Position numbers and translations under genes: made by a program. Shown piece by piece: positions 45,893-61,442 of a stretch of DNA of 64,000 nucleotides. The notes beneath the pieces are model-generated. The model saw only the letters and a list, made by a program, of their open reading frames with translations, did not search any database and was not told the origin of the DNA. Within the stretch, counting starts at the first letter, position 1; every line of letters begins with the position of its first letter. The DNA comes from Tumebacillus sp. BK434 (GTDB lineage Bacteria > Bacillota > Bacilli > Tumebacillales > Tumebacillaceae). The DNA is taken from positions 434,001 to 498,000 of the forward strand of contig NZ_SLXS01000002.1 in assembly GCF_004340785.1 (NCBI RefSeq), given 5' to 3'.

Positions 45893-46231
45893 ATGGGAGT
45901 GGGTGAATTGGCCGGGCTGATGGCAGACATCGCCAACCGGCAAGTCGGGGCGCAACTGCTGCCGGTCGAGCTCGGCACCATTCTGGAAGACATGGTCAAC
46001 GGCGGCGATCTGCGCATGAAGCCGGACTCGATGAAAATCGATCTGTCCTACAAGCACAAAGAACTGCTCGTAGCTGACAACCTGATCTTGCGCAAAGGCG
46101 ACCGCGTCGTGGCGGTCGGGATCAACGGCGGCCAGAACTACGCCATCCTCTGCCGCCTCAGCAAAAATCCGGCCCGGGCTGTGATTGGCAACGGCCAGTA
46201 TCGGGCCGGGGATCGGACGGTGGTCGAATGA
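45893..46231 (+). CDS. xkdR: Baseplate protein (XkdR/DUF2577-like)
   Basis: A 112-residue beta-rich protein after the hub gene, in the place of the DUF2577/XkdR component. It shows a small beta barrel pattern (LPVELGTILEDM, then LILRKGDRVVAVG). The ATG follows GAGGAGGGAAG, and its stop overlaps the next start (ATGA). Confidence 0.8.
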   Translation: MGVGELAGLMADIANRQVGAQLLPVELGTILEDMVNGGDLRMKPDSMKIDLSYKHKELLVADNLILRKGDRVVAVGINGGQNYAILCRLSKNPARAVIGNGQYRAGDRTVVE

Positions 46232-46680
46232 GCATCATGCCACAATTTCCTGCGCTGGACAACGCGTTTGACCTCGACGCGGCCGGGCAGGCAGCCGCAA
46301 ACACGGGCAACAACCCGGTGTTTGATTATCAACGAGGCGAGTTCGTGTTCACCGCGACCGGACGAGTGGCGGTGTCCGAGGGGCTGGAGAGCCTGAAGCA
46401 CTGGGCGAAAAAAGCGCTGCTCACCGCCCGCGACCGCTTTCTGGTCTATACGACCCAGTACGGCAACGAGGCACACGAACTGATCGGGATCGATCTGCCC
46501 GATGAGATTTTGTTTATGGAGCTGCAGCGCAACATCACCGAAGCGCTGATCTATGACGCGCGGGTGACAGCCTGCACCGATTTTCGCTTTGAGCGTCTGG
46601 CGGACCGCGTGATGTGCGACTTCACGCTGATCACGCCGCTTGGCGCCGAGGCGATGCAGTATACATTGGAGGTGAGCTAG
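46228..46680 (+). CDS. xkdS: Baseplate wedge protein (XkdS/DUF2634, gp25-like)
   Basis: A 150-residue protein of the DUF2634 family, the PBSX counterpart of the gp25/W baseplate wedge. The conserved segment is RVAVSEGLESLKHWAKKAL near residues 49-67. It overlaps the previous gene by 4 bp, and its 3' end carries the GGAGGTGA site of the next gene, so translation is coupled. Confidence 0.87.
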   Translation: MSIMPQFPALDNAFDLDAAGQAAANTGNNPVFDYQRGEFVFTATGRVAVSEGLESLKHWAKKALLTARDRFLVYTTQYGNEAHELIGIDLPDEILFMELQRNITEALIYDARVTACTDFRFERLADRVMCDFTLITPLGAEAMQYTLEVS

Positions 46681-46681
46681 C

Positions 46682-47845
46682 ATGAGTGAAAAAGATCTGT
46701 CGGCCGTATTTCCCTATCAGGATCAGACGGAGGAAGCGATTCGCCGGCGGATGCTGTCGGCGGTCGATCCTTCGTGGGACCAGTCGGAAGGCAGCTTCAT
46801 CTGGGATTCGCTGTCGCCGGCCGCCATCGAGTTTGCGCTCGCCTACATCCGGGCCAAGGAAGTGCTGCAGTGGGGCTTTGCCACCACCACTTTCGGCCCG
46901 TACCTCGACGCGCGCGGCGCAGAGCGCGGGATCTTTCGCCGCCCGGCCCAGAAAGCGGTAGGTGAAGTAACGGTGGAAGGCGCAGCGGGCGTCTACATCC
47001 CCGAAGGCACGATGTTCGCCACAGAAGCGGACGAGCTGAGCGATGAGAACCTGCAGTATTTCGTGACGACCGCAGACGGCACGATTCCGGGCAACAAAAC
47101 GCTGACGCTGCCTGTGGCATGCACGAAAGAGGGGAGCACCGGCAACGTGCTGCCCCAAAAGATCACCATCGCCGTCAGCAAGATTTCCGGTCTGACCAAG
47201 ATCGACAATGCCGACGCGATGAGCGGAGGGGTGGATGAAGAGACGGATGAGGCCTTTTTGAACCGCTATCTGAAGCATGTGCGCAACCCTGGCGCGTCGG
47301 GCAACATCGCGGACTACATCCGCTGGGCGCAAGAGGCGGACGCTTCGGTCGGCAAAGTGCAAGTGAGTCCGATTGCAGGTCAGCCTGGCCACGTGCAAGT
47401 CTTGCTCGTCGATTTGGAAGATCGGCCGGCCACTGCCGGGCTGATCAAAAAAGTGCAGGACTACATCGATCCGAACAGCGCGGGCGGCGGCGCGGGCATG
47501 GCGCCGATCGGAGCGAAGATTCATGTCGAGACGCCGACGCAGTTGGTGCTGTCGCTCCGCCTCCGACTGACCGTCATTCGCGGGTACGAGGAAGCCGGGG
47601 TGAAGCGGGCGGTGGTGCAAAACATCTCCAAATACTTGCGCACGCTCGTGCTCAACCCGGAGGATCGCTTCGTTCGCCTGTCCAAAGTGGGGCAGGCGAT
47701 CATGATGACCGAAGGCGTGCAGGACTTTGACCAGTTGACGATGGCGGTCGACGGCGTGCCGGTCACACAAAACTTGGAGATCGCGGCCGATGCGATGGTC
47801 GTGCTTGCGGAAGCGAACGTCGAATGGCTGCAGGCAGGTGAGTGA
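46682..47845 (+). CDS. xkdT: Baseplate J family protein (XkdT)
   Basis: A 387-residue baseplate J/gp47-like protein. The N-terminus has the typical QTEEAIRRRML motif and EGSFIWDSLSPAAIEFA segment, and the middle shows the GGVDEETDEAFLNRYL signature of the family. Together with XkdS and XkdU it forms the wedges that trigger sheath contraction. It overlaps the upstream frame of the next gene. Confidence 0.92.
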   Translation: MSEKDLSAVFPYQDQTEEAIRRRMLSAVDPSWDQSEGSFIWDSLSPAAIEFALAYIRAKEVLQWGFATTTFGPYLDARGAERGIFRRPAQKAVGEVTVEGAAGVYIPEGTMFATEADELSDENLQYFVTTADGTIPGNKTLTLPVACTKEGSTGNVLPQKITIAVSKISGLTKIDNADAMSGGVDEETDEAFLNRYLKHVRNPGASGNIADYIRWAQEADASVGKVQVSPIAGQPGHVQVLLVDLEDRPATAGLIKKVQDYIDPNSAGGGAGMAPIGAKIHVETPTQLVLSLRLRLTVIRGYEEAGVKRAVVQNISKYLRTLVLNPEDRFVRLSKVGQAIMMTEGVQDFDQLTMAVDGVPVTQNLEIAADAMVVLAEANVEWLQAGE

Positions 47846-47847
47846 CG

Positions 47848-49056
47848 ATGAGCGAACGTGAACGTGACGCCGTCACCCTGGCCAAGCTGCAGACGCTGAT
47901 GTCGTATGCCCCCACTCACTACGGGCGTTCCGAACTCTATCAGCAGTTGATGGAAGCGAACGCCGTGGAGTCGGTCGCGATGCGCAAGATGCTGGAAGAC
48001 GTGTTCGCCCAATTTTTCGTCGAGACGGCCACGTGGGGACTTGTCTTCTGGGAAACGGAGTTTGGCCTGATCACCAACGAGTCGCTGTCGTATCAGATGC
48101 GCCGGGCCCTCGTGCTGCAAAAGATGCGCGGGACGGGCACGATGACCAGCGAAACGATGGCTGCTATCTTGAGCTCGTACGGCGCGCGGACGGCGGAGAT
48201 CGATCAGGTGTTCGAAAGCTACAAGTTTGGCGCTGTGCTGGTCGATTTCATCTTGTCGCCAAAACGTCCCGTCGACGACGTCCACGCCAGCATCCGCGAG
48301 ACGATCAAAACGGTGCGCCCGGTGCATCTGGACTTTTGGATCGAATACCGGGAGCATGTCGCCGAGTCGTTCCGCGCCTGGTACAAAATGCGCACCGGGC
48401 GGGAGTATGCGCACAGCGATACGGTGCGCAGCGAGATGACCACACAGAATGAAGAGATGAAATTCGGGCAGACCGAAAAAAATCTGTTCCATTTGAACCA
48501 CTCGACCATCGGCAATACCATGTTTGTTTCCAGCGAACTAAACGATGAGTCATCCACGTTCTTAGAGCGCTCGTTGGATCATGAACACTACGACATGCAA
48601 GGGAATCTTGGCCAGGCATTTCTTCTCAATGGCTCTCAGGTCAATGGAGCGAACCGGACGCTGCACGCGGCGGTAAGCGCTGAAGGAAGTTCGGAGCTGA
48701 GGCAGACAAGCAGTGAGCAGATGGGCTTGATTGCAGACGGGAAGCCGGCGGTGCTTTTCGGTGTAAACAGCTGGGAAGTTCCATTTCGAGCATGTGCAGA
48801 TGCATACCGTTTCTCCTTTTCGAGACAGCCGGCTCGGCTGTTTCCAGAACGATTGGAAGAGCAGGCTGGAATGGAGCAGACACTGGCTGTTATCGAAGCG
48901 CATCCGCTTCAAGTTTTCGTGAGCCAAGCGGCAATATCAGTAGGGATGCTCAACGCAGCAGACGAAATGGATGTTGCGAAAGAGACCTGCAGTTGCGTGT
49001 TGTATCGGGCCGACCAAGACGGCGTGGAAACAATCTTGGAACAAAGAGCCCTGTAA
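47848..49056 (+). CDS. xkdU: XkdU-like baseplate protein with a C-terminal extension
   Basis: A 402-residue protein. Residues 1 to about 195 match XkdU/DUF2313 (KMLEDVFAQFFVETATWGLVFWETEFGL, shortened here to its FVETATWGL core), which is the full length of PBSX XkdU. The remaining 200 residues have no counterpart in XkdU and are AT-richer, and may add a tail-tip or fibre-attachment domain. The ATG at 47848 (AGGTGAGTGACG upstream) is preferred to the GTG at 47842 that overlaps the previous stop. The stop codon lies in the loop of a hairpin. Confidence 0.85.
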   Translation: MSERERDAVTLAKLQTLMSYAPTHYGRSELYQQLMEANAVESVAMRKMLEDVFAQFFVETATWGLVFWETEFGLITNESLSYQMRRALVLQKMRGTGTMTSETMAAILSSYGARTAEIDQVFESYKFGAVLVDFILSPKRPVDDVHASIRETIKTVRPVHLDFWIEYREHVAESFRAWYKMRTGREYAHSDTVRSEMTTQNEEMKFGQTEKNLFHLNHSTIGNTMFVSSELNDESSTFLERSLDHEHYDMQGNLGQAFLLNGSQVNGANRTLHAAVSAEGSSELRQTSSEQMGLIADGKPAVLFGVNSWEVPFRACADAYRFSFSRQPARLFPERLEEQAGMEQTLAVIEAHPLQVFVSQAAISVGMLNAADEMDVAKETCSCVLYRADQDGVETILEQRAL

Positions 49057-49077
49057 CGTCAGGGCTCTTTCATTTTC
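49043..49077 (+). terminator. Hairpin over the stop codon of the XkdU-like gene
   Basis: AAAGAGCCCT (49043-49052) pairs perfectly with AGGGCTCTTT (49061-49070), and CATTTTCC follows. The T-run is weak, so it probably attenuates transcription between baseplate and fibre genes. Confidence 0.65.
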
Positions 49078-49095
49078 CTAAGGGAGGTTGACCTC

Positions 49096-49635
49096 ATGAA
49101 ACATGAAGAAACAAAAGTAAAACTGGCGATCGGCGATGTCACGATCCAAATGTACAAGGCAGACGGGACGGTGCTCAAAAAACAGGAGCTGCGCAACCTG
49201 ATTGTCAAACAAGCGAGCGTTCTGATGGCCCGCCGAATGGCGCCGAGCGAGAATGTCGCCAACGGCTTCCAGTATCTCGCCCTCGGTAAAGGCGTTGGCA
49301 CAGGCAATCTACAGGAACCGCAGGTGGAAAATCCGGATCTGTCAGCGCTGCGGGATGAAGTGTATCGCAAGCCGATCACGACGTGGCGCTATTTGAACAG
49401 CGACGGCAGCGTTTCTGCCGCTCCGACCCATATCTTGGAACTTACAACTGAGATTTTGGAGGGTGAAGGTGTGCCGCAGGAGGCGGAATCTGTGCCGTTT
49501 ACGGAGATGGGGCTGTTCGGTGGCGATGCGTCGGGTGCTAAAGATTCTGGCTTCATGTTCAACCATAAAGTGTTCCCGGTCTGGAACAAGCCGATAGATG
49601 CCCGCTTGCGCATCGTCTGGAAGATTACCTTCTAA
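49096..49635 (+). CDS. Tail-tip protein of unknown role
   Basis: A 179-residue beta-rich protein between the baseplate and fibre genes. The start follows AAGGGAGGTTGACCTC. Recognisable features are an N-terminal strand-rich stretch (VKLAIGDVTIQMY), a segment LRNLIVKQASVLMARRM and a C-terminal FPVWNKPIDARLRIVWKITF-like strand, a pattern common in small phage tail-fibre connector or collar proteins. The function is inferred from place only. Confidence 0.7.
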   Translation: MKHEETKVKLAIGDVTIQMYKADGTVLKKQELRNLIVKQASVLMARRMAPSENVANGFQYLALGKGVGTGNLQEPQVENPDLSALRDEVYRKPITTWRYLNSDGSVSAAPTHILELTTEILEGEGVPQEAESVPFTEMGLFGGDASGAKDSGFMFNHKVFPVWNKPIDARLRIVWKITF

Positions 49636-49649
49636 AGGAGGGCTGAGAC

Positions 49650-51299
49650 GTGACCTATACGCCAAGATTCACCCGACCGCCGCAGGGCAATTATGACCCG
49701 GACAAAGCGTTCACTCAAATCCGGGCGGGCAGTGAGGCATATCTGCTGGAAGATGAAGTGAACGAAATGCAAGCGATCCTTCAAGAACAGGCTCGAAGTG
49801 TAGCACGAGACCTGTATCGGGACGGATTAAAAGAGCGACTGGTCGTCAAACGGGACACGAGCCGGGCGAACGTCTATCGCATCGCTCCGTTTGAAGTGAT
49901 GGCAGACGGCGTTAGCGTCCGCGTAACGGGTATCAACACAACAGGCACCCCGCGAACGGAAGCGGATGGCGAAGATAATTTGATCCTGATTCCAGCACCG
50001 CCGTTCGACAGTGAGGAGGAGCGCTACGACCCGGTGCTGCTTGAAGTGTTTGAGGAGGAAGTGCATGCCGGTCAAACGTTGTACCGACACGGAGCCCAAT
50101 CTAGCGATTTCACCATACCGAATGACCTCTGCGATAACCGGGTCGGCGCGGAAACTTCGCGCCGGATGCAAATGAAATCGGTATTGCGTGTGGTGGAGGA
50201 TGACCTGAGTGACTGGCAATATGACCTGAACGGCAGCCCTCTGACCCATTCGGAAGGCTGGGTGTTCCGCTCAGCTGCGGGGCGCACTGTGATTTGGCTG
50301 TTCACTCTTGCTTATTTGCCGGGTCAACAAGGTAATGAGCATGTCTTCGAGATGGCGCGATTGTCAAGCCTGAGGGATAGCGTCATTCCCTCTGGTTTCA
50401 TCAACACGCAGAAACTGGCGTACCAAGCAGTGACGTCAGATAAAATGGCCCCCGAAGTCGTCACCGCGGAAAAGCTGTCGAACGGCGCTGTAACGAGCAG
50501 TAAACTTGCCGCGAATGCGGTGAAAACCACGCATCTTGAAAATGCTGTGGTCACCGTCGACAAAATCGGCACAAATGCGGTCACGACATCGAAGATCGCC
50601 GACGGCCAGGTGACGATCGAGAAACTGGCGAACACAGCGATGAATACGTTGAATGACAGGATGGGACTGTCAGTTCCATCAGATGGATTTATTCCAATTC
50701 TGCGTTTCTTTCAGTGGTGGTCGGCGATCGGTAATTTTCCGGTCAAATGGGCGGGCGGACATTCGGCAGCAGAATGGGGAAGTCAAGTACTGCAAAAAGA
50801 GGGGCAAGCCTGGAAAGTTTTCGAAGGCATTACCTATATGAGCAGAACACATGCCACTTGGCAGGATAAAAAGATTCACATGTACATGGGGAACGCTGGC
50901 GCCTTAGCCGACAATGTCTCCATGTATTGTTTACAGAACATTACAAACACGACGGCAAGCGTTACGCCCAACGCGAACTATTCCAGTTATGCTGGTCAAA
51001 ACGCGGCGGCAAGCGCATCGGTTGCGTACAAGGTTTTTGATCCGGCAGGGAAGCCGGAATTGACGGACAATTTCACGGAAACGGTTACGCTAACCACTAC
51101 GAACATCGGCAGCGGTGGCTGGACGGTTCAAGTGCCAGCAGGACATGTGATGATTTTTATCTTGAAGTCCAGCCCATATTTGTCCTCAGGAAATCTGTAC
51201 TACAACATGCATGAGTTGCTTGCCCCGATAAGCCAAATGCCAAACTTTGCACCCCATCTGCCTACGTATCGCCGTCTCTTAAACGGTAAATGGGACTAA
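49650..51299 (+). CDS. Tail fibre protein 1
   Basis: A 549-residue protein with a GTG start 6-8 bases after AAAGGAGGG. Residues 1-230 form an N-terminal attachment region (PPQGNYDPDKAFTQ, then LLEDEVNEMQAI) that is clearly related to the next fibre gene and resembles DUF4815-type fibre bases. About residues 250-335 hold a run of 10-residue pseudo-repeats (AVTSDKMAP, AVTSSKLAA, AVTTSKIAD and so on), typical of trimeric fibre shafts. The last 200 residues are a beta-rich tip, presumably the receptor-binding part, AT-richer than the shaft. Confidence 0.85.
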   Translation: MTYTPRFTRPPQGNYDPDKAFTQIRAGSEAYLLEDEVNEMQAILQEQARSVARDLYRDGLKERLVVKRDTSRANVYRIAPFEVMADGVSVRVTGINTTGTPRTEADGEDNLILIPAPPFDSEEERYDPVLLEVFEEEVHAGQTLYRHGAQSSDFTIPNDLCDNRVGAETSRRMQMKSVLRVVEDDLSDWQYDLNGSPLTHSEGWVFRSAAGRTVIWLFTLAYLPGQQGNEHVFEMARLSSLRDSVIPSGFINTQKLAYQAVTSDKMAPEVVTAEKLSNGAVTSSKLAANAVKTTHLENAVVTVDKIGTNAVTTSKIADGQVTIEKLANTAMNTLNDRMGLSVPSDGFIPILRFFQWWSAIGNFPVKWAGGHSAAEWGSQVLQKEGQAWKVFEGITYMSRTHATWQDKKIHMYMGNAGALADNVSMYCLQNITNTTASVTPNANYSSYAGQNAAASASVAYKVFDPAGKPELTDNFTETVTLTTTNIGSGGWTVQVPAGHVMIFILKSSPYLSSGNLYYNMHELLAPISQMPNFAPHLPTYRRLLNGKWD

Positions 51300-51311
51300 A
51301 TTGTGCTTGGA

Positions 51312-51338
51312 GGAGGGGAACTTCCCCTCCCTTTTATT
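51312..51338 (+). terminator. Hairpin between the two fibre genes
   Basis: GGAGGGGAA (51312-51320) faces TTCCCCTCC (51322-51330), effectively a 7-bp GC-rich stem with a 5-base loop, followed by CTTTTATT. It could be a partial terminator. Confidence 0.7.
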
Positions 51339-51353
51339 AGGAGGTGACCTGGA

Positions 51354-52328
51354 ATGACGAAACATCCTGTATTCAATCGGAACCCGAAAGGAAATTTCAA
51401 TAAAGACAATCAGTTTACGCAGGTATTGATCGGCTCTGACGCCGTGTTGCTCGAAGATGAGCTGAATGAGATGCAAGCGATCCAAAGTAGCCGCGTTGAT
51501 GAACTGTACGATCTTCAGGACTACGACGGTGGAAAAACAGGGCTGGATTCCAACTTTGTCTATGGGGAGACATACGCTCATGAAATTCCCGCTTTCACTG
51601 CAAAAGTCGCGGGGCACATGATTCGTGTGTCTGGCTATGGAAACACGGGACAGTTTTCAACTGTACCAGAAGACAGCAATATTGTGTGCTTGGCACCCAT
51701 GCCGGAAGGACAAACTGAGCAAAGCGACCTGGTCTTTTTGGAAGTGAAGGAAGAAGTTCTGACGGGACACGAACCGCTTTTTCAACACGGCAATTTGGAT
51801 GCTAACTATCGATTGGATAATAAGTTGATCGATCCTCGCGTTGGACATGAAACAGCTCGTCGCCTCCAACTTCGAAGCAAACTGCGTTTGTTGCCAAACG
51901 TTGGTGAACTTCCAGCTAATCAACCGTGGCCATCGGCAATTTTTGCACTCGACTCTGCACTAGACCCATTAGGCGGACGCTATGTGTATGACCAGAATGG
52001 CAGATGGCGCTCAGAGAACGGCTACTATGCGATCCCCATCGCCACAGGGGTGAAGTACAAAGATCGCTTATATGGTATTACTACAGCTTTGTGGCCTGAG
52101 TTGATTAAAACCTACCTGACATACAGTGAAAGCGGTGATCTTATACAGGTCGATACTCGGTTAGGAGGAGTCTTTGTGCTGAGCAGCACAAAGATCACTC
52201 ATCGAGCCGAAGGGATCGATAAGGTTACAAATGTAAAGGACGGACGGGTGACAACTTGGCAATGCGCTTATGGATCGGTACCAGGCGGAGGAACTGGGAT
52301 GTATGCAGTGTTTAAAAAGGAATCATAA
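51354..52328 (+). CDS. Tail fibre protein 2 (paralogous base, different tip)
   Basis: A 324-residue protein whose first 190 residues align with fibre 1 (PVFNRNPKGNFNKDNQFTQ, LLEDELNEMQAI, RVGHETARRLQLRSKLRL against the matching parts), while its C-terminal 130 residues differ and lack the shaft repeats. It begins eight bases after AGGAGGTGACC. Two fibres with the same base and different tips imply either two receptors or alternate adsorption proteins. Confidence 0.82.
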   Translation: MTKHPVFNRNPKGNFNKDNQFTQVLIGSDAVLLEDELNEMQAIQSSRVDELYDLQDYDGGKTGLDSNFVYGETYAHEIPAFTAKVAGHMIRVSGYGNTGQFSTVPEDSNIVCLAPMPEGQTEQSDLVFLEVKEEVLTGHEPLFQHGNLDANYRLDNKLIDPRVGHETARRLQLRSKLRLLPNVGELPANQPWPSAIFALDSALDPLGGRYVYDQNGRWRSENGYYAIPIATGVKYKDRLYGITTALWPELIKTYLTYSESGDLIQVDTRLGGVFVLSSTKITHRAEGIDKVTNVKDGRVTTWQCAYGSVPGGGTGMYAVFKKES

Positions 52329-52351
52329 TTACGCCTAGAGGAGGGAGCTTC

Positions 52352-52735
52352 ATGTTACAAATCGTGACCGGAAGAGTGACAGTCGGAGGCGGTGTGCGGC
52401 TTGCGAGGGAAGCGCAGCGACCGATTCTTGTGACAGACACCAAAACAGTCTCAACTGCAGGGACGGTCCTTGCAACGCTTACGGTACCGGCCGGGCAGAC
52501 CTACCACCTCTCTGAAGTCAGCGTTGGCGGTGACACCGCGAACCGCATTGATGTTGTCATTCAGGGAAAAACGGTGCACACCATGTTCTACCCGGGGTAT
52601 GGGATGCACAACAAAACTTACGCAGCGATGCCAAAAGCATATGGCGGCGAGACGATACAAGTGATCAGCCGGCAAGCGACAGCCGGGATGCACACGGCAA
52701 CGATTATCGCTCACAAAGCAACTGAATTGTTCTAA
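52352..52735 (+). CDS. Small beta-rich tail-associated protein (unknown)
   Basis: A 127-residue protein after the second fibre gene, starting at an ATG nine bases after GAGGAGGGAG. It is beta-rich with no membrane segment (TGTVLATLTVPAGQTYHLSEVSV is a strand pattern, abbreviated in meaning). It may be a fibre tip or a fibre chaperone. I do not recognise the family. Confidence 0.7.
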   Translation: MLQIVTGRVTVGGGVRLAREAQRPILVTDTKTVSTAGTVLATLTVPAGQTYHLSEVSVGGDTANRIDVVIQGKTVHTMFYPGYGMHNKTYAAMPKAYGGETIQVISRQATAGMHTATIIAHKATELF

Positions 52736-52779
52736 CATGTAGGGCTGAAGTGAGTTCCAACAAGCGAGGTGAAACACCC

Positions 52780-53103
52780 ATGACGATCAACATCGAAGCG
52801 CTGAAACAGGGGTTGGATGATGTGAAGGAGCGGCAGTTGCAGTTTGAAAGCGAAGTGAAAGACGAACTGAGCAAAATCAAAGACACCCTGGTCGCCCAGG
52901 CGGTGGCCAACTCCCGCAATGAGACGATTCTCTCCTCGCTGGTCGAGGAGATCAAGAGCTTTCGCACCGAGTTTATGACCCTGCTCACCGAAAGCGTGAA
53001 GAGCACGAACAGCCAAAACAACGGCTGGCACGATCTGGCGGTCAAAGTGGTGATGAGCATCGTCGCCCTCGCTGCGGCTGTTTACGGAGGGTCCAAGCTA
53101 TGA
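52780..53103 (+). CDS. xhlA: XhlA-like membrane-associated lysis protein
   Basis: A 107-residue protein with a long helical, coiled-coil-prone N-terminal part (EALKQGLDDVKERQLQF) and one membrane helix at the C-terminus (about 85-104), the layout of XhlA. In PBSX, XhlA acts with a holin to let the amidase reach the wall. The ATG at 52780 follows GCGAGGTG by 9 bases and is preferred over an in-frame ATG 30 bases earlier. It overlaps the amidase gene (ATGA). Confidence 0.85.
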   Translation: MTINIEALKQGLDDVKERQLQFESEVKDELSKIKDTLVAQAVANSRNETILSSLVEEIKSFRTEFMTLLTESVKSTNSQNNGWHDLAVKVVMSIVALAAAVYGGSKL

Positions 53104-53837
53104 AGATCACCGACTTGCTCCTGACCAATCCGGACGCCCGCCCGCGCCGCCAGATCACGCCCAAAGGCGTCGTCCTGCACTGGGTCGCCAACCCGGGCAC
53201 CACCGCGCGCAACAACCGCGACTATTTTCAAAACGGGGTCAGCGCCGCCAAGCAGAACTGGGCATCGGCGCACTATGTGGTCGACGACAAGGAGATCATC
53301 CGCTGCATCCCTGAAACAGAGATGGCCTACCACGTAGGAGCGACTTCCTACAATAAAACTGCGCTGCAGCGCTTCGCTACATCCTACCCGAATGACTGTC
53401 TGATCGGCATCGAGCTCTGCCATGCCGACTGGGACGGTCATTTTGGCAAAGGCACCTGGGCGCAGGCGGTCGAGCTCGTCGCCGACATCCTGCGCCGCTG
53501 GCAGCTGCCCGTCACGGCGATCGTGCGCCACTACGACATCACCGGCAAGGAGTGTCCGCGCCTGATGGTGCGCGACCCGGCTGTGTTCGCCGCCTTCAAG
53601 GCGGATGTCGAGCGCATCTTGCATCCGCCGGCCCCCGCTCGCAAACCGGGCCCGGCGCCTGACGTTCCGGCCGACCACTTCGCGGCCGCAGCGGTCGCTT
53701 GGGCGTACCAGCACAAGATCTCGGCGGGCACCGACGCCGCGAAGCATTTTGCACCCGACCGGCCGATCACCCGCGCCGAAATGATCGTGCTGCTCAAGCG
53801 CACCTATGACCTCCTGAAAGGAGGTGAATCCCAATGA
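53100..53837 (+). CDS. N-acetylmuramoyl-L-alanine amidase (Amidase_2) with an SLH domain
   Basis: A 245-residue endolysin. Residues 1-175 are an Amidase_2 domain with the zinc ligands visible as His27 (VVLHWV), His144 and Cys152 (RHYDITGKECPR) and a glutamate at 105 (IGIEL). It cuts the MurNAc-L-Ala bond. A Pro/Ala linker leads to one S-layer homology domain at 192-236 (WAYQHKISAG, then FAPDRPITRAEMIVLL). SLH domains bind secondary cell wall polymer, so this one should direct the enzyme to the host wall. It overlaps both neighbours by 4 bp, giving the lysis order XhlA, amidase, holin. Confidence 0.92.
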   Translation: MKITDLLLTNPDARPRRQITPKGVVLHWVANPGTTARNNRDYFQNGVSAAKQNWASAHYVVDDKEIIRCIPETEMAYHVGATSYNKTALQRFATSYPNDCLIGIELCHADWDGHFGKGTWAQAVELVADILRRWQLPVTAIVRHYDITGKECPRLMVRDPAVFAAFKADVERILHPPAPARKPGPAPDVPADHFAAAAVAWAYQHKISAGTDAAKHFAPDRPITRAEMIVLLKRTYDLLKGGESQ

Positions 53838-54214
53838 CCGAATGGCTTTCCTACCTCCAAGAGCCCCTCGTGCTGCTGTGCATCGCCGGGGCTATTGTTG
53901 TGCTCATGCTGTTCCTCGACGCCAACCACAACACGCACCGCCTGCGCCAGGCCCTCTTGCAGCTGATGCTGCAGGCGGAGAAAAAGGCGGCGCAAGGCCA
54001 CTACGGCACCGTCAAAGGCTCCGACCTGATGGACCTCGTCGTCCAAAAGGCGGTCGCCGCCGTCGTCCCGCTCCTGCCGTTCTATCTGCGCCCCTTCTTC
54101 ACCGAGAAGTTCGTTCGCCACATGGCCGAGCTGCTCTATGAAAAAGCGCACGACTATCTCGATGACGGGCAGCTCAACGCTTCGTTCGTCCTTGAGGAGC
54201 GCGATCAGGCGTAG
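53834..54214 (+). CDS. Putative holin (LLH-type)
   Basis: A 126-residue protein with one N-terminal membrane helix (about 10-28, PLVLLCIAGAIVVLMLFL) and a long amphipathic segment containing QAEKKAAQGHYGTVKG near residues 46-61, which resembles LLH-family phage holins. It is the last gene of the tail and lysis operon and is followed by a strong terminator. GGAGGTGAATCCCA precedes the ATG. Confidence 0.72.
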   Translation: MTEWLSYLQEPLVLLCIAGAIVVLMLFLDANHNTHRLRQALLQLMLQAEKKAAQGHYGTVKGSDLMDLVVQKAVAAVVPLLPFYLRPFFTEKFVRHMAELLYEKAHDYLDDGQLNASFVLEERDQA

Positions 54215-54225
54215 CTCCTCACCCG

Positions 54226-54257
54226 GCCTGCCTCCTCAATGGGGCAGGCACTTTTTT
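54226..54257 (+). terminator. Rho-independent terminator ending the tail/lysis operon
   Basis: GCCTGCC (54226-54232) pairs with GGCAGGC (54243-54249), and ACTTTTTT follows, 12 bases after the holin stop. Confidence 0.88.
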
Positions 54258-54258
54258 A

Positions 54259-54287
54259 TTGCAGATCGCATGAATATATATTATATT
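54259..54287 (+). promoter_or_regulatory. Candidate sigma-A promoter for the 54346 gene
   Basis: TTGCAG (54259-54264) and TATATT (54282-54287) are 17 bases apart in an AT-rich stretch directly after the operon terminator. Confidence 0.6.
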
Positions 54288-54345
54288 CAAAATGGGAACA
54301 TAAGTTTGCAATATGGAATTGTAGAATTTATGGAAGGTGGCCGCG

Positions 54346-54654
54346 ATGTACGACCTGAAGGACGTCTATGGCGAAACGGTGCGCGACCCGAACTTCATGA
54401 GCGCGACCAAGCAAGCGGTGTTGGCCGAGTTCAAACAGCGCAGCCTGGAGGCTGGATATCCGCCGATCGTCGCGGACTTTTTCCTCGAAGTTGAGGGGGC
54501 GGACCGTTCCGAGCAGGCGCTGTTGAAACTGTTCGGCAAAATGCGGGAACGCTGGGGGCAGGAAGGTCGCTGGTTGACCACGACAGAAGCAAAAGCGGAC
54601 GGCTCCTGGCAGGAGATGCTGCAGACAGCCCGCGAGGTTTATGATTTTGAATAG
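54346..54654 (+). CDS. Small protein of unknown function, own transcript
   Basis: A 102-residue acidic, helical protein starting at the ATG at 54346, with GGAAGGTGG five bases upstream; an in-frame GTG nine bases earlier lies in that site. It has its own promoter and terminator and stands between the lysis genes and the sigma factor. No domain is recognised. Its place suggests a role in control or immunity of the tail cluster, which is inference. Confidence 0.7.
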   Translation: MYDLKDVYGETVRDPNFMSATKQAVLAEFKQRSLEAGYPPIVADFFLEVEGADRSEQALLKLFGKMRERWGQEGRWLTTTEAKADGSWQEMLQTAREVYDFE

Positions 54655-54658
54655 TATT

Positions 54659-54695
54659 AAAGGGACCCCGGAAATTTAAGTGGGTCTTTTTTTTT
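54659..54695 (+). terminator. Terminator after the 54346 gene
   Basis: AAAGGGACCC (54659-54668) pairs with GGGTCTTTTT (54682-54691) with two G-U pairs, and the T-run continues to 54695. Confidence 0.8.
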
Positions 54696-54713
54696 GTAGC
54701 ATTAAATTTACGG

Positions 54714-54742
54714 TTGTACTGTACGGCTAGATCGTTTAAAAT
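54714..54742 (+). promoter_or_regulatory. Sigma-A promoter of the sigma factor gene
   Basis: TTGTAC (54714-54719) and TAAAAT (54737-54742) are 17 bases apart, just before a LexA-type box, and lead into the sigma factor gene at 54803. Confidence 0.75.
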
Positions 54743-54743
54743 A

Positions 54744-54757
54744 AGAACACACGTTCG
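54744..54757 (+). promoter_or_regulatory. LexA/DinR (SOS) box over the transcription start
   Basis: AGAACACACGTTCG contains GAAC-N4-GTTC and agrees with the Bacillus SOS consensus CGAACRNRYGTTCG at all defined positions except the first. It begins two bases after the -10 box, where a bound repressor would block initiation. This indicates DNA-damage control of the downstream sigma factor. Confidence 0.82.
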
Positions 54758-54802
54758 TGTTTTTGTTTTTGTTCGGGGCAAGCTGCGTGCAGGAGGAACG
54801 AA

Positions 54803-55390
54803 ATGGAGAATCAGACCAAACACCTGGATCAATTGGCAGAAGACTGTAAGCGTGGCACAGTTTCCTTTGAAGAAGTGGTGAACAAAATGCGCAAACGCAT
54901 CAAAGCCATCGCGTGGCAGGCGGTCAGAGCCTACGAGCGATTCAAGCCCATGTACGATGTGGAGGATTATGAGAACCGCGTTTTGCTGGCGCTGGAAAAG
55001 GCGATCCGGGCTTGGGACCCGGAGCGCGAGGCGGGGTTTGCCACGTACTTCGAGCGGGTGGCGCAATATGAACTGAATGCGGTGCGCAAGGAGATGAGTG
55101 CTTTGTCCCGCCAGAGCAACCTCGACGCCTTCTCCGTCGAAGAACATCTGACCGAACAGGGCGGAGTGGTGCTGGTTGCCGCAGATGACAGTTTTCGGCG
55201 GAGCGAATTTTATGCGATGTTCAACCGCCTGCCGCTGACCGTCCAGCAGCGCACGATCTGCCTGCTGGTCATGCAAGGCTACAAAAACAAGGAGATCGCC
55301 GCCAGTCTCTGCATCACCGAAGCGGCGGTGTCGATGGCGCTGAAGCGCTTGCGTCCCAAATTTACTGATGCCGGACTGTCCGGATATTAA
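54803..55390 (+). CDS. Sigma-70 family RNA polymerase sigma factor (SOS-controlled)
   Basis: A 195-residue sigma factor. Region 2 is visible at about 45-105 (YDVEDYENRVLLALEKAI, then FATYFERVAQYELN) and region 4 at about 145-190 (QGYKNKEIAASLCITEAAVSMALKRLR in shortened form: KNKEIAASLCI helix-turn-helix). It resembles the small phage or late sigma factors of Firmicutes that turn on tail operons, as Xpf does for PBSX. The ATG follows CAGGAGGAACGAA. It has its own promoter with a LexA box and a strong terminator. The natural target is the tail operon at 36988, whose upstream region lacks a clear sigma-A promoter. Confidence 0.9.
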   Translation: MENQTKHLDQLAEDCKRGTVSFEEVVNKMRKRIKAIAWQAVRAYERFKPMYDVEDYENRVLLALEKAIRAWDPEREAGFATYFERVAQYELNAVRKEMSALSRQSNLDAFSVEEHLTEQGGVVLVAADDSFRRSEFYAMFNRLPLTVQQRTICLLVMQGYKNKEIAASLCITEAAVSMALKRLRPKFTDAGLSGY

Positions 55391-55405
55391 CATACGTAAC
55401 AACGG

Positions 55406-55447
55406 AAAAGAAGGCCGGTTCTGAATTTATGGAACCGGCCTTCTTTT
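55406..55447 (+). terminator. Strong terminator of the sigma factor gene
   Basis: A perfect 16-bp stem (AAAAGAAGGCCGGTTC at 55406-55421 with its complement at 55432-55447) with a 10-base loop and T-rich 3' arm. Confidence 0.93.
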
Positions 55448-55516
55448 GTGTTAATTCTGAGTCCCGCTTCGCCTATATAGGTAGCAGAAGGAACTAGCGA
55501 GAGGATGGGATTCACG

Positions 55517-55822
55517 ATGAGTCAAAAGATCATTTTGCCAAACCAGCAGGAGATCGCCGATCTGAGCACGGCGGTGGCCGACAGCCAGAAGCGGCGCGAT
55601 TCTTTGCAGCAGAGCCGCTATTGGAACGAGCCGATCTCGCGCGGTGAAGCGCAGCAGGCGATGGGGCAGATCGTCAACGATGCGCTGCAGACATTTCTCG
55701 CTTTTCTCGGCGAGAATTTTGAACTGACGGCGAAGTCGCCGCTGGGCGAACAGATCCTGCAAGAGCTGGAAGCGCTGGAAGCGGACGCGGGAACCGCTTC
55801 GGACGAGCCGGCCGATCACTGA
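55517..55822 (+). CDS. Small helical protein of unknown function
   Basis: A 101-residue helical acidic protein. The ATG at 55517 is chosen because GAGAGGA lies 11 bases upstream; an earlier ATG at 55505 directly abuts that site. It heads a group of three close genes with the HTH protein that follows. No family is recognised. The conserved-looking core is QSRYWNEPISRGEAQQAM. Confidence 0.65.
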   Translation: MSQKIILPNQQEIADLSTAVADSQKRRDSLQQSRYWNEPISRGEAQQAMGQIVNDALQTFLAFLGENFELTAKSPLGEQILQELEALEADAGTASDEPADH

Positions 55823-55857
55823 GACGAACATCACGACAGCCAGAGGAGGCATTGATC

Positions 55858-56238
55858 ATGGGCATGGTAAAACGCGACATCGACAAAGGCAGACGTATGG
55901 CAGACGTGATCGACTACGGGTCGACGGCAGCGCTGAAGACGGCGCTGCGTTCCCTGCACAAATTAAAGCTCGGCGCCGAACAGGGCTGCCCGACGGCGCA
56001 GGCGATCCTGATCGACCTGAAGACGGCGCTCGGCGAGTACCAAAGCGAGAAGGCTCGCGGCCGCGCGGCGGTGACGGAGCGGCAGAAAGAGGCGATCGTG
56101 CTGCACCTGATCGACGACCGCAGCATTCAGGAGACGGCCGAGCTGCTCGGCGTCGACCCGACGGCTATCTCGCACCGCGTGTCGTCCGGGCTGAAGCGGA
56201 TAGTCCAGTTTCTGCAGACGGGGCGTGCCGCCTCATGA
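55858..56238 (+). CDS. Sigma region 4-like / ArpU-type HTH protein
   Basis: A 126-residue protein with a C-terminal helix-turn-helix at about 75-120 (TERQKEAIVLHLIDD, then IQETAELLGVDPTAISHRV), like sigma-70 region 4 or the ArpU/Xpf group of phage late regulators. The N-terminal half is helical, without region 2. The ATG at 55858 lies 8 bases after GAGGAGG; a TTG six bases earlier is less likely. It overlaps the next gene (ATGA). It probably acts with or after the SOS-controlled sigma factor. Confidence 0.8.
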   Translation: MGMVKRDIDKGRRMADVIDYGSTAALKTALRSLHKLKLGAEQGCPTAQAILIDLKTALGEYQSEKARGRAAVTERQKEAIVLHLIDDRSIQETAELLGVDPTAISHRVSSGLKRIVQFLQTGRAAS

Positions 56239-56522
56239 TCCGCCGCCGACTCGGCCCGAGCCGCCCCGTCCGCACCCGCGAAGAGGTGGAACGGTATCTG
56301 CAGGACCCGAACCGCGAGATGACCGCCGAAGTCCTCGAGGAGCTCGCCGACGACCTGCTCGCCCCGATCTTAAAGGACAAGTCCCGCACCAAATCGGCCC
56401 GTCAGGAATACACGATCCTCTCCCCGCGCCAACTCGAACGCCGCTGGGAGCGGGAGGTGGTGTTCACCGCGCTCTCCAAAGGCGCGAAAGTCCTGCTCGG
56501 CTTGACGGTGGAAGAAGAATAG
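56235..56522 (+). CDS. Small basic/acidic protein of unknown function
   Basis: A 95-residue helical protein coupled to the HTH gene by a 4-bp overlap. It is the last gene before the IS element. No domain is recognised; the segment EEVERYLQDPNREMTAEVLE near residues 16-35 is the most distinctive. Confidence 0.65.
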   Translation: MIRRRLGPSRPVRTREEVERYLQDPNREMTAEVLEELADDLLAPILKDKSRTKSARQEYTILSPRQLERRWEREVVFTALSKGAKVLLGLTVEEE

Positions 56523-56523
56523 C

Positions 56524-56540
56524 AAAAAGCGGCCCGGTGC
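56524..56540. terminator. Left half of a terminator hairpin split by the IS
   Basis: AAGCGGCCC (56527-56535) is the left arm. Its partner GGGCCGCTT lies at 57854-57862 beyond the IS. Before insertion the loop was GGTGCT. On the minus strand the right end of the hairpin runs into TTTTTG, so it mainly ended the VioB-like transcript. Confidence 0.82.
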
Positions 56541-56585
56541 TGAACATATCCCTGTCAAGTAGACAGTGGGTAAACAAAGCACCCT

Positions 56586-57416
56586 CTATGCGACCTTATC
56601 TCGATATTCAATCGGGCTAAGGTCGTTTAGTTTTCGTTGAATTCGATCCTCGTTATAGAAACGAATATAAGCTTGAACTGCTTGCACGACTTCAGCTTTC
56701 GTTTTGAATTTGTTGATGTACATCAGTTCTGCTTTCAAGTGCCCAAAAAAGTTCTCGATGCAAGCGTTGTCCAAACAGTTTCCTTTTCGAGACATGCTTT
56801 GTGTTATATGATACTGATTGAGAAGATTTTTATATTGTCGAGATGTGTATTGGAACCCCTGATCACTATGAAGGAGGACTCCGGTCACATCTCTTTTTTT
56901 ATTTGCCTGGTGCACAGTATGCAACACAAGTTTGAGATCGTTCTTCTGACCGATCCTGTATGCAACAACCTCGTTGTTGAACATGTCGTAGATAGCGGAT
57001 AAATACAGGGTCTGATTGTTGAACTGAAGATACGTCACATCCGTGGCCCATTTTTGATTGGGCATAAGAGCTTCGAATTGACGTTTCAGATGATTCGGTG
57101 CTACTTCATGTTCAACCTTGCCAAAGAACCTCTTTTTCCGCCGGATCTTCGCTTGTACGTTTAACTCTTTCATCAGCCGATAGACTCGCTTGTGGTTGAC
57201 AATGATGCCATGACGTTTTCGCAACCAGGCCCTTACTCGATAGTATCCGTATATCCCTCTCACCTCTCGGTGACATTCTTTGATAAGACGTTTCAGTAAA
57301 TTGTCCTGACTTTGCTTGGTACTTTCCGTTTCTTGACGTCGCAGCCACTTGTAGAACCCGCTCCTCGAAACACCTGCCAACTTGCATAAGAGCATGACTG
57401 AATGCGTTTTGAGCAT
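56586..57416 (-). CDS. IS3-family transposase OrfB (DDE integrase domain)
   Basis: A 276-residue protein with an N-terminal HTH_21-type segment (REVRGIYGYYRVRAWL) and an rve integrase domain. The catalytic residues are visible as Asp in WATDVTY, Asp in LHSDQGFQYTS and Glu in NACIENFFGHLK. It is in the -1 frame relative to OrfA, and that frame is open upstream of its ATG past the OrfA stop, so an OrfAB fusion by -1 frameshifting in the A-rich stretch at 57448-57459 is likely. Confidence 0.93.
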   Translation of the reverse strand: MLKTHSVMLLCKLAGVSRSGFYKWLRRQETESTKQSQDNLLKRLIKECHREVRGIYGYYRVRAWLRKRHGIIVNHKRVYRLMKELNVQAKIRRKKRFFGKVEHEVAPNHLKRQFEALMPNQKWATDVTYLQFNNQTLYLSAIYDMFNNEVVAYRIGQKNDLKLVLHTVHQANKKRDVTGVLLHSDQGFQYTSRQYKNLLNQYHITQSMSRKGNCLDNACIENFFGHLKAELMYINKFKTKAEVVQAVQAYIRFYNEDRIQRKLNDLSPIEYRDKVA

Positions 57417-57436
57417 ATCTCGAATGGCTCGATATG

Positions 57437-57778
57437 CTATTTGGATTTGTTTTCTTTTTCGTCCCCCTTTTGTAAGGCTCGCATCTTTTTTAGCAATGCA
57501 ACCTCCGCCCGAAGTGCTTTCACTTCTTCCTCAACGGTCGCAAACTTCGTTTTTGGCCTGCCTTTGTGTGGAGATTTTGCCTTTCCTCGTCGTTCTTCCA
57601 AACCGACCATTCCATATTTATCGAAATTTCTTACCCACAGTTGGACCATAGTGTGGGAGGGTATTCCTAATAACTTCGCGATTGCTTTATACCCGATTTG
57701 ACCCTTTTTGTACATCTTCACTGCTTGATACTTGAACTCGGAAGAATAGGTCGATCTTACCCGTGTCTCTTTCTCCAT
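57437..57778 (-). CDS. IS3-family transposase OrfA (HTH and leucine-zipper-like)
   Basis: A 113-residue protein with a helix-turn-helix (AVKMYKKGQIGYKAIAKLLG) and a C-terminal coiled-coil stretch (VEEEVKALRAEVALLKKM), typical of IS150-group OrfA. It binds the element ends. It ends in an A-rich coding stretch suited to ribosome slippage into OrfB. Confidence 0.92.
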   Translation of the reverse strand: MEKETRVRSTYSSEFKYQAVKMYKKGQIGYKAIAKLLGIPSHTMVQLWVRNFDKYGMVGLEERRGKAKSPHKGRPKTKFATVEEEVKALRAEVALLKKMRALQKGDEKENKSK

Positions 57779-57848
57779 ACAAAAAACCCCTCCTGAGTTA
57801 ACAGTAGGGGTACTTTGTCCTGCTGTCTACACAGGAGGGATAATATCA

Positions 57849-57862
57849 GTGCTGGGCCGCTT
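57849..57862. terminator. Right half of the IS-split terminator hairpin
   Basis: GTGC (57849-57852) is the target duplication. GGGCCGCTT (57854-57862) is the right arm of the original hairpin, 42 bases past the stop of the VioB-like gene. With the IS in place, VioB-like transcription reads into the transposase genes on the same strand. Confidence 0.82.
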
Positions 57863-57904
57863 CTTGGTGCGCTTCTGATGCGTAACGCTTCATCGTAACA
57901 GCGC

Positions 57905-60900
57905 TTAGTAACGCTTCACCTTCGGTGCGAAATGGTTCGTCATCGCGTCGGTCATCTGCTGCGCGCCGTTCGCCACGGTGGTGACGGCGGTGAGCACCGC
58001 TTGCGGCGTGGACGCTTTGAAGGAGACGTTCCAGTCCAAGGTGATCGTCTCGTCGCCGTGTTTCGGTTTGGAGACGGAGAAGGACGCGGTGTAATCGGTG
58101 ACGCCTTCGAGGCCGGTCATGGTGTAGGAGTAGGAATCGGAGTTTTTCTTCCCCAACGTCTCGGTGATCTCGACCGTCTTCGAGAGCTTCAAGGTGCGGG
58201 TCTTGCCGTCGGCTGCGACTTTGAACGGCGCCCAAAACGGTTGGGCAAAATTGCAGGCGTAGTCGGCGACCGTCTTTTGCATCGCCGCCGGGAAGGTCCA
58301 GCTGCGCGACAAGGTGACCGGCTTGCCGGACGCTTGCACCGTGACCGGGATGTACAATTCCCCGAAGACGAGGTCGCGGATCGCATCGGTGTCCATCACG
58401 CCTTTGGTGTATTTGACCAGCCAGCGCGAGTTGGACGAAGTGCGGCTGTCTTCCTCCGCCAAGGCGAACTCGAGGTTGGTCTTTTTCGCCAGCGCTTTGA
58501 GGATCGGGTTGTCGCCTGCGCCGAGCTCCAAGTGGCCGCTGACCGTATGGCCGTAGTGGAGCAGGAAGGTCAGCCAGATGAACGTCTCCGGGCGCGGGAC
58601 GTTGATCAGGCGCATGCGCTCGGCGAGCGAAACGGCCGCATCGACCGCCGCTTGCGACTCGACGGCGGAGTTGAACTCATGCTCCAGCGCTTTGCCGAGT
58701 TTGCGCGAACGGTTGACGAGGTAGGACATCGGATAGCCCGGGCACTCGAACAGCTTGCGGTCTTGCTCCGGCATCGCGTCCATCACCCATGACGGAATGT
58801 TTTGCACCCCGTCAAATCCGCACGGGCCGCGCGAGGTGGAGATGCGCTGCAACGGCTCCATCTCCATCATCGTCAAGCCTTGGTTGAAGATCTCGCGCTT
58901 GAACAGCAGCTCCGGGTCGTCCGCGTTTGCACCGCCTGCCGGATCGGCAAACAGCGCCATGATGAACGGGTCGATCGGCTCGCCGTCTTTCCAGACCAGA
59001 TGGTTCTGGCCGTTCAGGAACGGCTTCTGCCCCTTTTTCTCCAGCAGGTCGAGGCGCAGCTTGCGGTCCGCGCCGAGGATGTCCTGCGGCGTCAGGTTGA
59101 GCAGGTCGAGGAAACCGTCGACGCGCAGTTCCGACTGCACGCCCGAAGTCTGCACGGCGCCAAGCGAGTTCATCACTTGCAGCGGGACGAAGCCGGCGTT
59201 CGCTTTGCCGTTGGTGACGACGAGCGACACCTCTTGGGCGTTGACGCCAAGCTCCGGCACGTCTTTTTTCGGGCCGCGCACGATGTCGTGCTTCTTGTCG
59301 TTGTGCTGCCAGACCAGCGCGCGGTCAAAACGGCGGTTGCCGTCGGCCGGGTGCAGCATGTGCGTGCCGGTCGCGCCCACTTCGTCGCTCGGCGGGTCCG
59401 GGTCGGTCGCCAGCTGCACGAGGCCCCAGCCGGAGAACTTGATCCGCAGGGCTAAAGTCTCTTCAAACAGCGCCGGAATGGTGGTCGGATCTTCTTCGTA
59501 TTTGCCTCCGTCCGGATGCTTCTGCTGGTAGGTCAGATCGGGCATCTGGTTGGAGTAGCCGCCGTGGACGCGGAACGGGAACTGCTTCTGGAACTCGTCG
59601 AGCTGGGAGAGGGTGGTCAGGCGCGAGAGGATCATGTCTTTCGTGTTTTCGTCGAGCGTGACGCCTGCCAGAGCTTCCTTTTGCGCGGCAGCCCAGCTCG
59701 CGACATCGCTCAAGACGCGCACCGCCAGATAGTCCATGCGGGCGTTGACGTCCTGCGAGCGCTCGGTCTGCGTGTAGATGCCGTGCAGCTGCTGGGCGTG
59801 GATCGGCAGCAAGGGCAGGCCGGCCGGGTCGAGGCGGAACATGTCCTGCAGGTTGACCGGGAAGAACGAGGCCAGTTCGAGGAACGGGCGGATCGCCAGC
59901 GACATCAGCGGCCACGAAGCCAGCATCTCGATCGCTTGGCGGCGGGGCTTGTCCGCGTCCCAGTGCGGGATCTCATACATGCGAGAGAGCCAGGACAGCA
60001 TGACGAGGTACGCCGCGTTAAAGTGCGACGGGAGCTCGGATGTGATCTGCTTCAGGCGCACGTTGTCGTCCACGTACAGCTGCTCGCGGACCGCTTCGAA
60101 TTCCACGCCCGACGCTTGAGCCAGCGCTTTCTCCTGCTCCAGCTCGGTCATGATCAGCACGAAGCGGTAGAGGTGCGAGTTGCGCAGGCGCTCGCCGAGG
60201 CGGACGATCGGCGTCGACGGATTGCGGCGGTTCGGGTCGCGCATCACTTTGGTCAGGTAGTTGCGCGTGCCGCCGATCTGCTCCACTTTGTCGAGGAACT
60301 CCAGCGCTTTGCTTTCAAAATTGGACGCGCCTTCGCCTTCTTCGACGATCTCTTTGACGATGTTTTCAACATGCTTGTAGTTGCGCAGCGGGTTCTCGAT
60401 GTTGCCGCGGGCAAAATGGTTGAAGTTCATGTCGCGGTTGATCGGGCCGATCGGCAAAAAGCCCTCTGCTGCGTGGGCCGGATCGAGCAGTTCGTTGTTC
60501 AGGTCGCGGTTGTTGTTCTCGACCCAGTTGAAGTCGAACGCCTGCTGGTAGAGGGGCAGGATGCCGCGCAGGTAGAAGTCGGCGATCGACTGGAAGCGCA
60601 GTTCTTCCACCGACGGCAGCCCGACCGCTTTCATCGCCGCAAACACTTTTTGCTCGACTTTGTCTTCCGGCGCGAGCGGCGTCAGCAGGTTGTAGAGCTG
60701 GTACAGCTTCTGCTTCAGCTCGGCGCGGCGGTCTTCCTTATCGATGTGATAGAGCATGCTTTCGAAGCGGTAGTCCAGCTCGAAGTCATACAAGCGTTTA
60801 AATAATTGCGAAGCCGATTCGCCAAACGGGTTGTCGTCCTGCAGGGAATCGGTCGATTCGTAGAGCACGAAGCGGCGGATGTTTTCGAGGCTCAAGCCGC

Positions 60901-61291
60901 TGATCGGCACTTCCACACCGTTGCCGCCGTCGACGTTCTCGCCGGCGATCTGTGCTCTCCAGTTCGGGATCACCCAGTTGCCGCTCTGTGCGCGCTTGGG
61001 CAGGCCGAAGCTCGGTGCTTCGCCGAGGCCGCGGAGCAGGCACTCGACGTAATGCAGGTGCAGCATCTCTTCATGGGCGACCATGAGGATGCTTTGCTTC
61101 CAGGCGCGCGCCCGTTCGAACTGCACGGCGCGGCGGCGGTTCGGCTTGCCGGCCGCAAGGGCGAACTCCTGCGGCGTGCTTTTAATCGAGCAGGCCGTAT
61201 AAAGGTAGGCATCGAGCAGACAGTGTTCGAGTTCGGCCGCTTCGTGCAGCAGATCGACCAGCAGTTTGCGTGCCTCTTGGTTGTCACTCAT
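57905..61291 (-). CDS. VioB/RebD-like ferritin-fold protein with C-terminal SRPBCC-like domain
   Basis: A 1128-residue protein. The N-terminus is a ferritin-like domain of the kind found in VioB, RebD and StaD: Glu22-His23 in AAELEHCLLDAYL and Glu74-Glu75-x-x-His78 in AHEEMLHLHYV are likely metal ligands. Those enzymes couple two indole-pyruvate imines in violacein and rebeccamycin synthesis. The long middle part fits VioB-type length (about 1000 residues). The last 134 residues (from about 995) read as an SRPBCC/polyketide-cyclase-type domain (KTVEITETLG, then GVTDYTASFSV and LDWNVSF), an addition not known to me in VioB. No VioA/RebO-type oxidase is near, so the substrate is unknown. The ATG follows AGGAGGG by 11 bases. 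The family match is from motif memory. Confidence 0.78.
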   Translation of the reverse strand: MSDNQEARKLLVDLLHEAAELEHCLLDAYLYTACSIKSTPQEFALAAGKPNRRRAVQFERARAWKQSILMVAHEEMLHLHYVECLLRGLGEAPSFGLPKRAQSGNWVIPNWRAQIAGENVDGGNGVEVPISGLSLENIRRFVLYESTDSLQDDNPFGESASQLFKRLYDFELDYRFESMLYHIDKEDRRAELKQKLYQLYNLLTPLAPEDKVEQKVFAAMKAVGLPSVEELRFQSIADFYLRGILPLYQQAFDFNWVENNNRDLNNELLDPAHAAEGFLPIGPINRDMNFNHFARGNIENPLRNYKHVENIVKEIVEEGEGASNFESKALEFLDKVEQIGGTRNYLTKVMRDPNRRNPSTPIVRLGERLRNSHLYRFVLIMTELEQEKALAQASGVEFEAVREQLYVDDNVRLKQITSELPSHFNAAYLVMLSWLSRMYEIPHWDADKPRRQAIEMLASWPLMSLAIRPFLELASFFPVNLQDMFRLDPAGLPLLPIHAQQLHGIYTQTERSQDVNARMDYLAVRVLSDVASWAAAQKEALAGVTLDENTKDMILSRLTTLSQLDEFQKQFPFRVHGGYSNQMPDLTYQQKHPDGGKYEEDPTTIPALFEETLALRIKFSGWGLVQLATDPDPPSDEVGATGTHMLHPADGNRRFDRALVWQHNDKKHDIVRGPKKDVPELGVNAQEVSLVVTNGKANAGFVPLQVMNSLGAVQTSGVQSELRVDGFLDLLNLTPQDILGADRKLRLDLLEKKGQKPFLNGQNHLVWKDGEPIDPFIMALFADPAGGANADDPELLFKREIFNQGLTMMEMEPLQRISTSRGPCGFDGVQNIPSWVMDAMPEQDRKLFECPGYPMSYLVNRSRKLGKALEHEFNSAVESQAAVDAAVSLAERMRLINVPRPETFIWLTFLLHYGHTVSGHLELGAGDNPILKALAKKTNLEFALAEEDSRTSSNSRWLVKYTKGVMDTDAIRDLVFGELYIPVTVQASGKPVTLSRSWTFPAAMQKTVADYACNFAQPFWAPFKVAADGKTRTLKLSKTVEITETLGKKNSDSYSYTMTGLEGVTDYTASFSVSKPKHGDETITLDWNVSFKASTPQAVLTAVTTVANGAQQMTDAMTNHFAPKVKRY

Positions 61292-61442
61292 CGTCTAGAA
61301 GTCCCTCCTTTTGTCCTTTTAATTCAAGTTAAATCTAGCATGTGTATATAAAGAATACAAGAAACAATTTTGTATATAGTTTAACTTTATACATTATGTT
61401 AGTATATACTTGAGGTAAGTCTGATTAACCGGAGGAAAAAGG
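61292..61442. promoter_or_regulatory. AT-rich divergent intergenic region with a dyad
   Basis: The 150 bases between the divergent VioB-like and DedA genes are far AT-richer than their surroundings. An imperfect dyad GTATATAGTTTAAC (61372-61385) / GTTAGTATATAC (61398-61409) is a candidate operator, and GTATATA recurs at 61344-61350. TTGTAT and TAGATT 17 bases apart on the minus strand could serve the VioB-like gene. Several other promoter readings are possible. Confidence 0.45.

Follow-up and report, generated by a model that had tools for sequence, protein, structure and literature searches.

The gene described here lies in a window of 64,000 nucleotides from Tumebacillus sp. BK434, the whole stretch of DNA that was analysed, and its product is probably a lineage-specific oxidative enzyme. 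Judged from sequence comparison, the order of its parts, with a PF12902 ferritin-like module first, a long middle region next and a predicted SRPBCC domain last, is a new architecture within the PF12902 group and was found only in Tumebacillus. The coordinates of all features are given in Table 1.

Table 1. Features of the ferritin-like/SRPBCC protein gene and of its surroundings (positions are those of the window; NRPS, nonribosomal peptide synthetase)
Feature	Position	Strand	Content or basis
Ferritin-like/SRPBCC protein gene	57905..61291	(-)	1,128 aa; intact ORF, orthologs, codon counts
PF12902 ferritin-like domain, residues 1-395	60107..61291	(-)	Pfam match and alignment; candidate di-metal ligands, insertions
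Helical extension, residues 396-500	59792..60106	(-)	Continues the family module; weak collinear second match to RebD
Middle region, residues 501-984	58340..59791	(-)	About 490 residues, no recognised family
SRPBCC (Bet v 1/START-like) domain, residues 985-1128	57908..58339	(-)	Predicted structure
Divergent intergenic region, 151 bp, shared with VTT-domain gene	61292..61442	.	Conserved A+T-rich stretches, ribosome sites on both sides
IS3-family element	56513-57876	(-)	Two ORFs, imperfect inverted ends; just downstream of the ferritin-like gene
Contractile phage-tail cluster	38039-56238		Sheath, baseplate J, tape-measure-like, amidase-like, small membrane protein, sigma-like regulators
NRPS island	1124-36047	(-)	Four adjacent ORFs: 4517, 4271, 1065 and 1756 aa

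The open reading frame begins with ATG, is preceded by a ribosome site of the GGAGG type and contains no internal stops. Orthologs of nearly equal length were found in T. avium (91% identity) and in a further Tumebacillus genome, G002 (80% identity), and the gene was present in all three Tumebacillus genomes examined. Nei-Gojobori counts over the whole gene yielded pN/pS values of about 0.19 for the window against T. avium and about 0.25 for the window against G002, which indicates a real gene under purifying selection.

Outside Tumebacillus, neither the whole protein, searched against about 400 genomes from the phylum Bacillota, nor a profile, run on about 400 genomes from the class, gave a credible match. 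The weak hits at class level (E of 5e-4 to 1e-3) covered short stretches, in two cases full of stops, and were dismissed as chance. A scan of GTDB-based contigs, which detects close relatives only, returned T. avium alone, and the plasmid and phage collections gave no match to the whole protein at E 1e-5. Outside Bacillota, relatives were sought on plasmids and in one close-relative scan, and the restriction to Tumebacillus holds within that scope. Sequence searches of the PDB returned no credible relative, and a literature search returned no paper combining the terms ferritin-like, SRPBCC and diiron.

The ferritin-like N-terminus proposed in an earlier note on this DNA was confirmed. The Pfam model PF12902 (Ferritin-like) matched residues 15-324 with E=1.7e-17 and a score of 64.5 bits (cut-off 22.3), the Tumebacillus orthologs likewise scored above this cut-off, and the ligand pattern was intact. 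Residues 1-560 of the three orthologs were aligned with eleven other PF12902 sequences: two of the RebD/StaD type, two of 360 aa encoded in genomes of the bacterial family to which Tumebacillus belongs, and the remainder from Nostoc, Methylobacterium, Asticcacaulis, Bradyrhizobium, Gloeothece, Pseudoalteromonas and Aureibacter. E22, E75, H78, E145, E320 and H373 were invariant in all 14 proteins, RebD included. A ferritin-like dinuclear site typically comprises four carboxylates and two histidines, and these six residues are candidate di-metal ligands. The same E/E/H/E/E/H set was observed in a 411-aa Methylobacterium protein encoded beside a GMC oxidoreductase gene, in a 544-aa Nostoc protein encoded beside a radical SAM gene, and in C. 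vibrioides 3hl1.

Compared with the PF12902 family, generic members included, the Tumebacillus domain carries insertions at about residues 157-230 and 325-370, and the ferritin-like domain therefore extends to about residue 395. Beyond it, a helical extension common to RebD and to the longer generic PF12902 proteins reaches approximately residue 500, with the conserved N410, Y428 and M463 aligning with RebD and with the 411-aa Methylobacterium protein. Full-length AlphaFold prediction reached a pLDDT of 36 and provided no usable model outside the C-terminus; the VIA-align list for this model contained the SRPBCC part and no ferritin fold, which is uninformative at such a pLDDT. In a tree built from the ferritin module, the Tumebacillus branch was very long and weakly supported, and we therefore assign it no sister group.

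The earlier note had also called the protein VioB/RebD-like, with the metal-ligand pattern of imine-dimer and chromopyrrolate synthases. The protein would then be a synthase of the VioB/RebD/StaD type, with its SRPBCC domain replacing a VioE-like cyclisation step. The PF12902 module and the collinear helical extension are indeed common to both, the total lengths are similar, and the NCBIfam VioB model TIGR04492 was matched at E=1.5e-5. However, the score of this match was 23 bits, far below the cut-off of 1250, only profile residues 602-704 of 1003 were covered, and the Nostoc PF12902 protein beside the radical SAM gene scored higher on the same model (69 bits). By BLAST, other PF12902 proteins were likewise more similar than RebD, with 61 bits for Methylobacterium, 58 for Nostoc and 40 for RebD.

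The comparison with RebD was based on two chromopyrrolate-synthase-type (RebD/StaD) proteins from actinobacterial plasmids, together with their clusters, in which genes for an FAD oxidoreductase, an FAD monooxygenase and a P450 lie alongside. In these proteins the PF12902 module occupies the last third, from about residue 656, whereas the Tumebacillus module starts at residue 7. The N-terminal ~640 residues of RebD have no counterpart in the Tumebacillus protein, and RebD ends at the helical extension, without SRPBCC, while the Tumebacillus protein continues to its SRPBCC domain. H23 is kept in the Tumebacillus protein and replaced by Leu in both RebD proteins.

VioB, RebD and StaD are encoded with a tryptophan oxidase gene, whereas none of the RebO type was found in the Tumebacillus genome: a RebO profile search of the assembly (97.85% complete) returned only matches of 35-66 residues at the N-terminal end of the profile. 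The genome has six PF01593 matches, and the five that were typed comprise one protoporphyrinogen oxidase and four proteins nearest to carotenoid/squalene-type oxidoreductases. Domain order, scores, the retained H23 and the RebO result together indicate that the proteins are linked through PF12902 and not as imine-dimer synthases; we regard a synthase role of the VioB type as very improbable for this protein.

With regard to the earlier claims, the orphan status of the gene held, both for its neighbourhood, where no pathway genes were found, and, as regards a tryptophan oxidase of the RebO type, for the assembly. The ligand pattern proved to belong to the whole PF12902 group, and the likeness to VioB/RebD gave way to closer generic PF12902 proteins, as far as tested. 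The note's alternative, some other job for the family in Firmicutes, fits better than a VioB/RebD role, but within the searches made this architecture occurred in Tumebacillus alone. Nothing ties the protein to the violacein or rebeccamycin pathways.

On plasmids, PF12902 genes often adjoin genes of oxidative enzymes, namely GMC oxidoreductases, radical SAM and LodA-type proteins, or enzymes of the RebO/P450/StaC type. In one Nostoc plasmid protein (L015 7857-9752) a LodA_C match is followed by PF12902, and the surrounding cluster includes a radical SAM gene and another PF12902 gene; a Streptomyces plasmid (L038) carries a similar gene set. On an Aureibacter plasmid (L042 2920-6675), a PF12902 gene directly precedes EboA and EboC genes.

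By analogy, the Tumebacillus protein might be a maturation or protein-modifying factor. PF12902 genes accompany genes for LodA-type quinoproteins and radical SAM proteins in the Nostoc, Streptomyces and Bradyrhizobium clusters, and fungal PF12902 genes adjoin lodA/lodB-like genes (PMC4417212). Against such a role, which appears quite improbable, no LodA or radical SAM partner adjoins the Tumebacillus gene, and the middle region showed no similarity to the LodA-like or LodA-ferritin proteins tested.

The middle region gave no match of note in the Pfam search, no similarity to RebD residues 1-645 at the sensitivity used and, as tblastn of residues 566-1128 against plasmids, nothing even at E=10. 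Among the generic PF12902 proteins, no counterpart of either this 490-aa region or the SRPBCC domain was found. Residues 561-640 and 681-840 were the best-conserved long stretches of the protein, with 85-95% identity to G002, and pN was 0.014 for residues 561-720 (window against T. avium). The region probably holds a function important to the organism.

For the last 146 residues, AlphaFold with the three orthologs gave a pLDDT of 82.8 and a pTM of 0.73. The modelled order is strand, helix, several strands and finally a long C-terminal helix, in agreement with the helix-grip fold, in which a curved sheet lies over this last helix. The best Foldseek matches were B. thuringiensis 3f08 (E 6e-8) and B. 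cereus 3cnw (E 4e-7), and VIA-align against 3cnw (B. cereus XoxI) gave Z 14.6 over 129 residues with an rmsd of 2.7; PYL receptors, a fern hydroxynitrile lyase and the ZhuI cyclase followed at Z of about 12-13. Even within the poor full-length model the SRPBCC stretch retained Z 13.3. On the strength of the AlphaFold model and the Foldseek and VIA-align matches, the last ~140 residues are predicted to fold as an SRPBCC domain.

The SRPBCC-type C-terminus that the first reading had assigned to the last 134 residues is thus strongly supported by the predicted fold but not by sequence families: no SRPBCC Pfam family matched the C-terminal part at E<=10, in a search whose filters may hide weak matches. 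The XoxI-type proteins 3cnw and 3f08 have the same fold at about 19% identity, but they are small stand-alone proteins without a ferritin-like fusion, in contrast to the fused Tumebacillus domain. The SRPBCC part was the fastest-changing portion of the protein, with about 58-80% identity to G002.

Our favoured, still tentative, reading of the protein as an oxidative enzyme is a diiron-type cytosolic oxidoreductase whose SRPBCC domain holds the substrate, a hydrophobic small molecule; this reading is plausible though short of probable. The PF12902 match, the six invariant Glu/His positions, the predicted SRPBCC fold, the oxidative enzymes encoded near plasmid PF12902 proteins and the position of the NRPS genes speak for it, whereas the absence of a catalytic partner, transporter or regulator from an operon with the gene counts against it. 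We infer the metal identity, the oxygen chemistry, the substrate and any NRPS link. The N-terminal four-helix domain would bind a dinuclear metal, most likely iron, through the six conserved residues, and this site would activate oxygen or peroxide. The conserved middle region could contribute a second element of the active site or a docking element for the substrate. The SRPBCC domain would cup the hydrophobic small molecule, which would undergo oxidation and then, still in place, coupling or cyclisation; this molecule could be a product of the NRPS island or act beside it. SRPBCC domains can be non-catalytic, which counts against a catalytic reading.

A non-biosynthetic role in metal or peroxide handling, such as sequestration of Fe or Mn or a catalase-like activity, with the SRPBCC domain binding a lipid or haem-like ligand, is possible but unlikely. 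The ferritin-like domain with its intact ligand set and the absence of a biosynthetic operon are in line with it, as is the catalase activity reported for VioB (PMC9705886), a protein for which the 2021 review listed no crystal structure (PMC9705886). A length of 1,128 aa, a very conserved middle region and an SRPBCC domain would, however, be unusual for storage or scavenging.

The gene is probably its own transcription unit, and no catalytic partner, transporter or regulator was found in an operon with it. The divergent layout with the VTT-domain gene was kept in all three Tumebacillus species, with YtkA-like and Lgt genes beyond; no close ortholog of the VTT-domain neighbour was found in the sister genus. 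The intergenic region contains a near-palindrome, ACAAA(A/T)TTGT, which is largely conserved in the three species and is a possible operator. Right after the gene, a terminator-like palindrome, GAGCTCTGCC...GGCAGAGCTC, was present in T. avium and G002 and missing in the window.

The phage-tail cluster, in which no head genes were noticed, is likely a tailocin. With the ferritin-like gene at its 3' end in both the window and G002, the gene could be read as tailocin or prophage cargo. The gene lies, however, on the strand opposite to the tail genes, the whole protein had no match in PHROGs, and in two species it has its own terminator-like palindrome. T. avium carries the gene without a tail cluster at that site, which largely refutes the cargo reading and leaves it extremely improbable.

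Condensation, adenylation and carrier domains were identified in the two ORFs of the NRPS island that were scanned. In T. avium, the ferritin-like gene is followed by a 264-aa gene and then, 1.3 kb downstream, by an NRPS gene in the same orientation. The 264-aa protein (L002 13453-14247) belongs to no Pfam family, and its gene converges on the ferritin-like gene. The window NRPS gene from 36047 has the T. avium NRPS start sequence and the orientation of the ferritin-like gene, from which it lies about 22 kb away, separated by the phage-tail cluster; the NRPS genes of G002 likewise lie beyond the tail cluster. The NRPS island was thus on the same side of the ferritin-like gene in all three species. 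Since it rests on location in three close relatives, the link is purely positional, and it may reflect simple shared ancestry. That the protein founds a Tumebacillus-specific family combining diiron oxidation, SRPBCC coupling or cyclisation and a new central catalytic domain, and tailors the product of the adjacent NRPS, seems decidedly unlikely.

For the family as a whole, PF12902 recurs near oxidative enzymes of unusual chemistry, the VioB/RebD step included. With PF12902, SRPBCC and a conserved middle region in one protein, the Tumebacillus gene would offer a compact system for probing the role of the ferritin-like domain.
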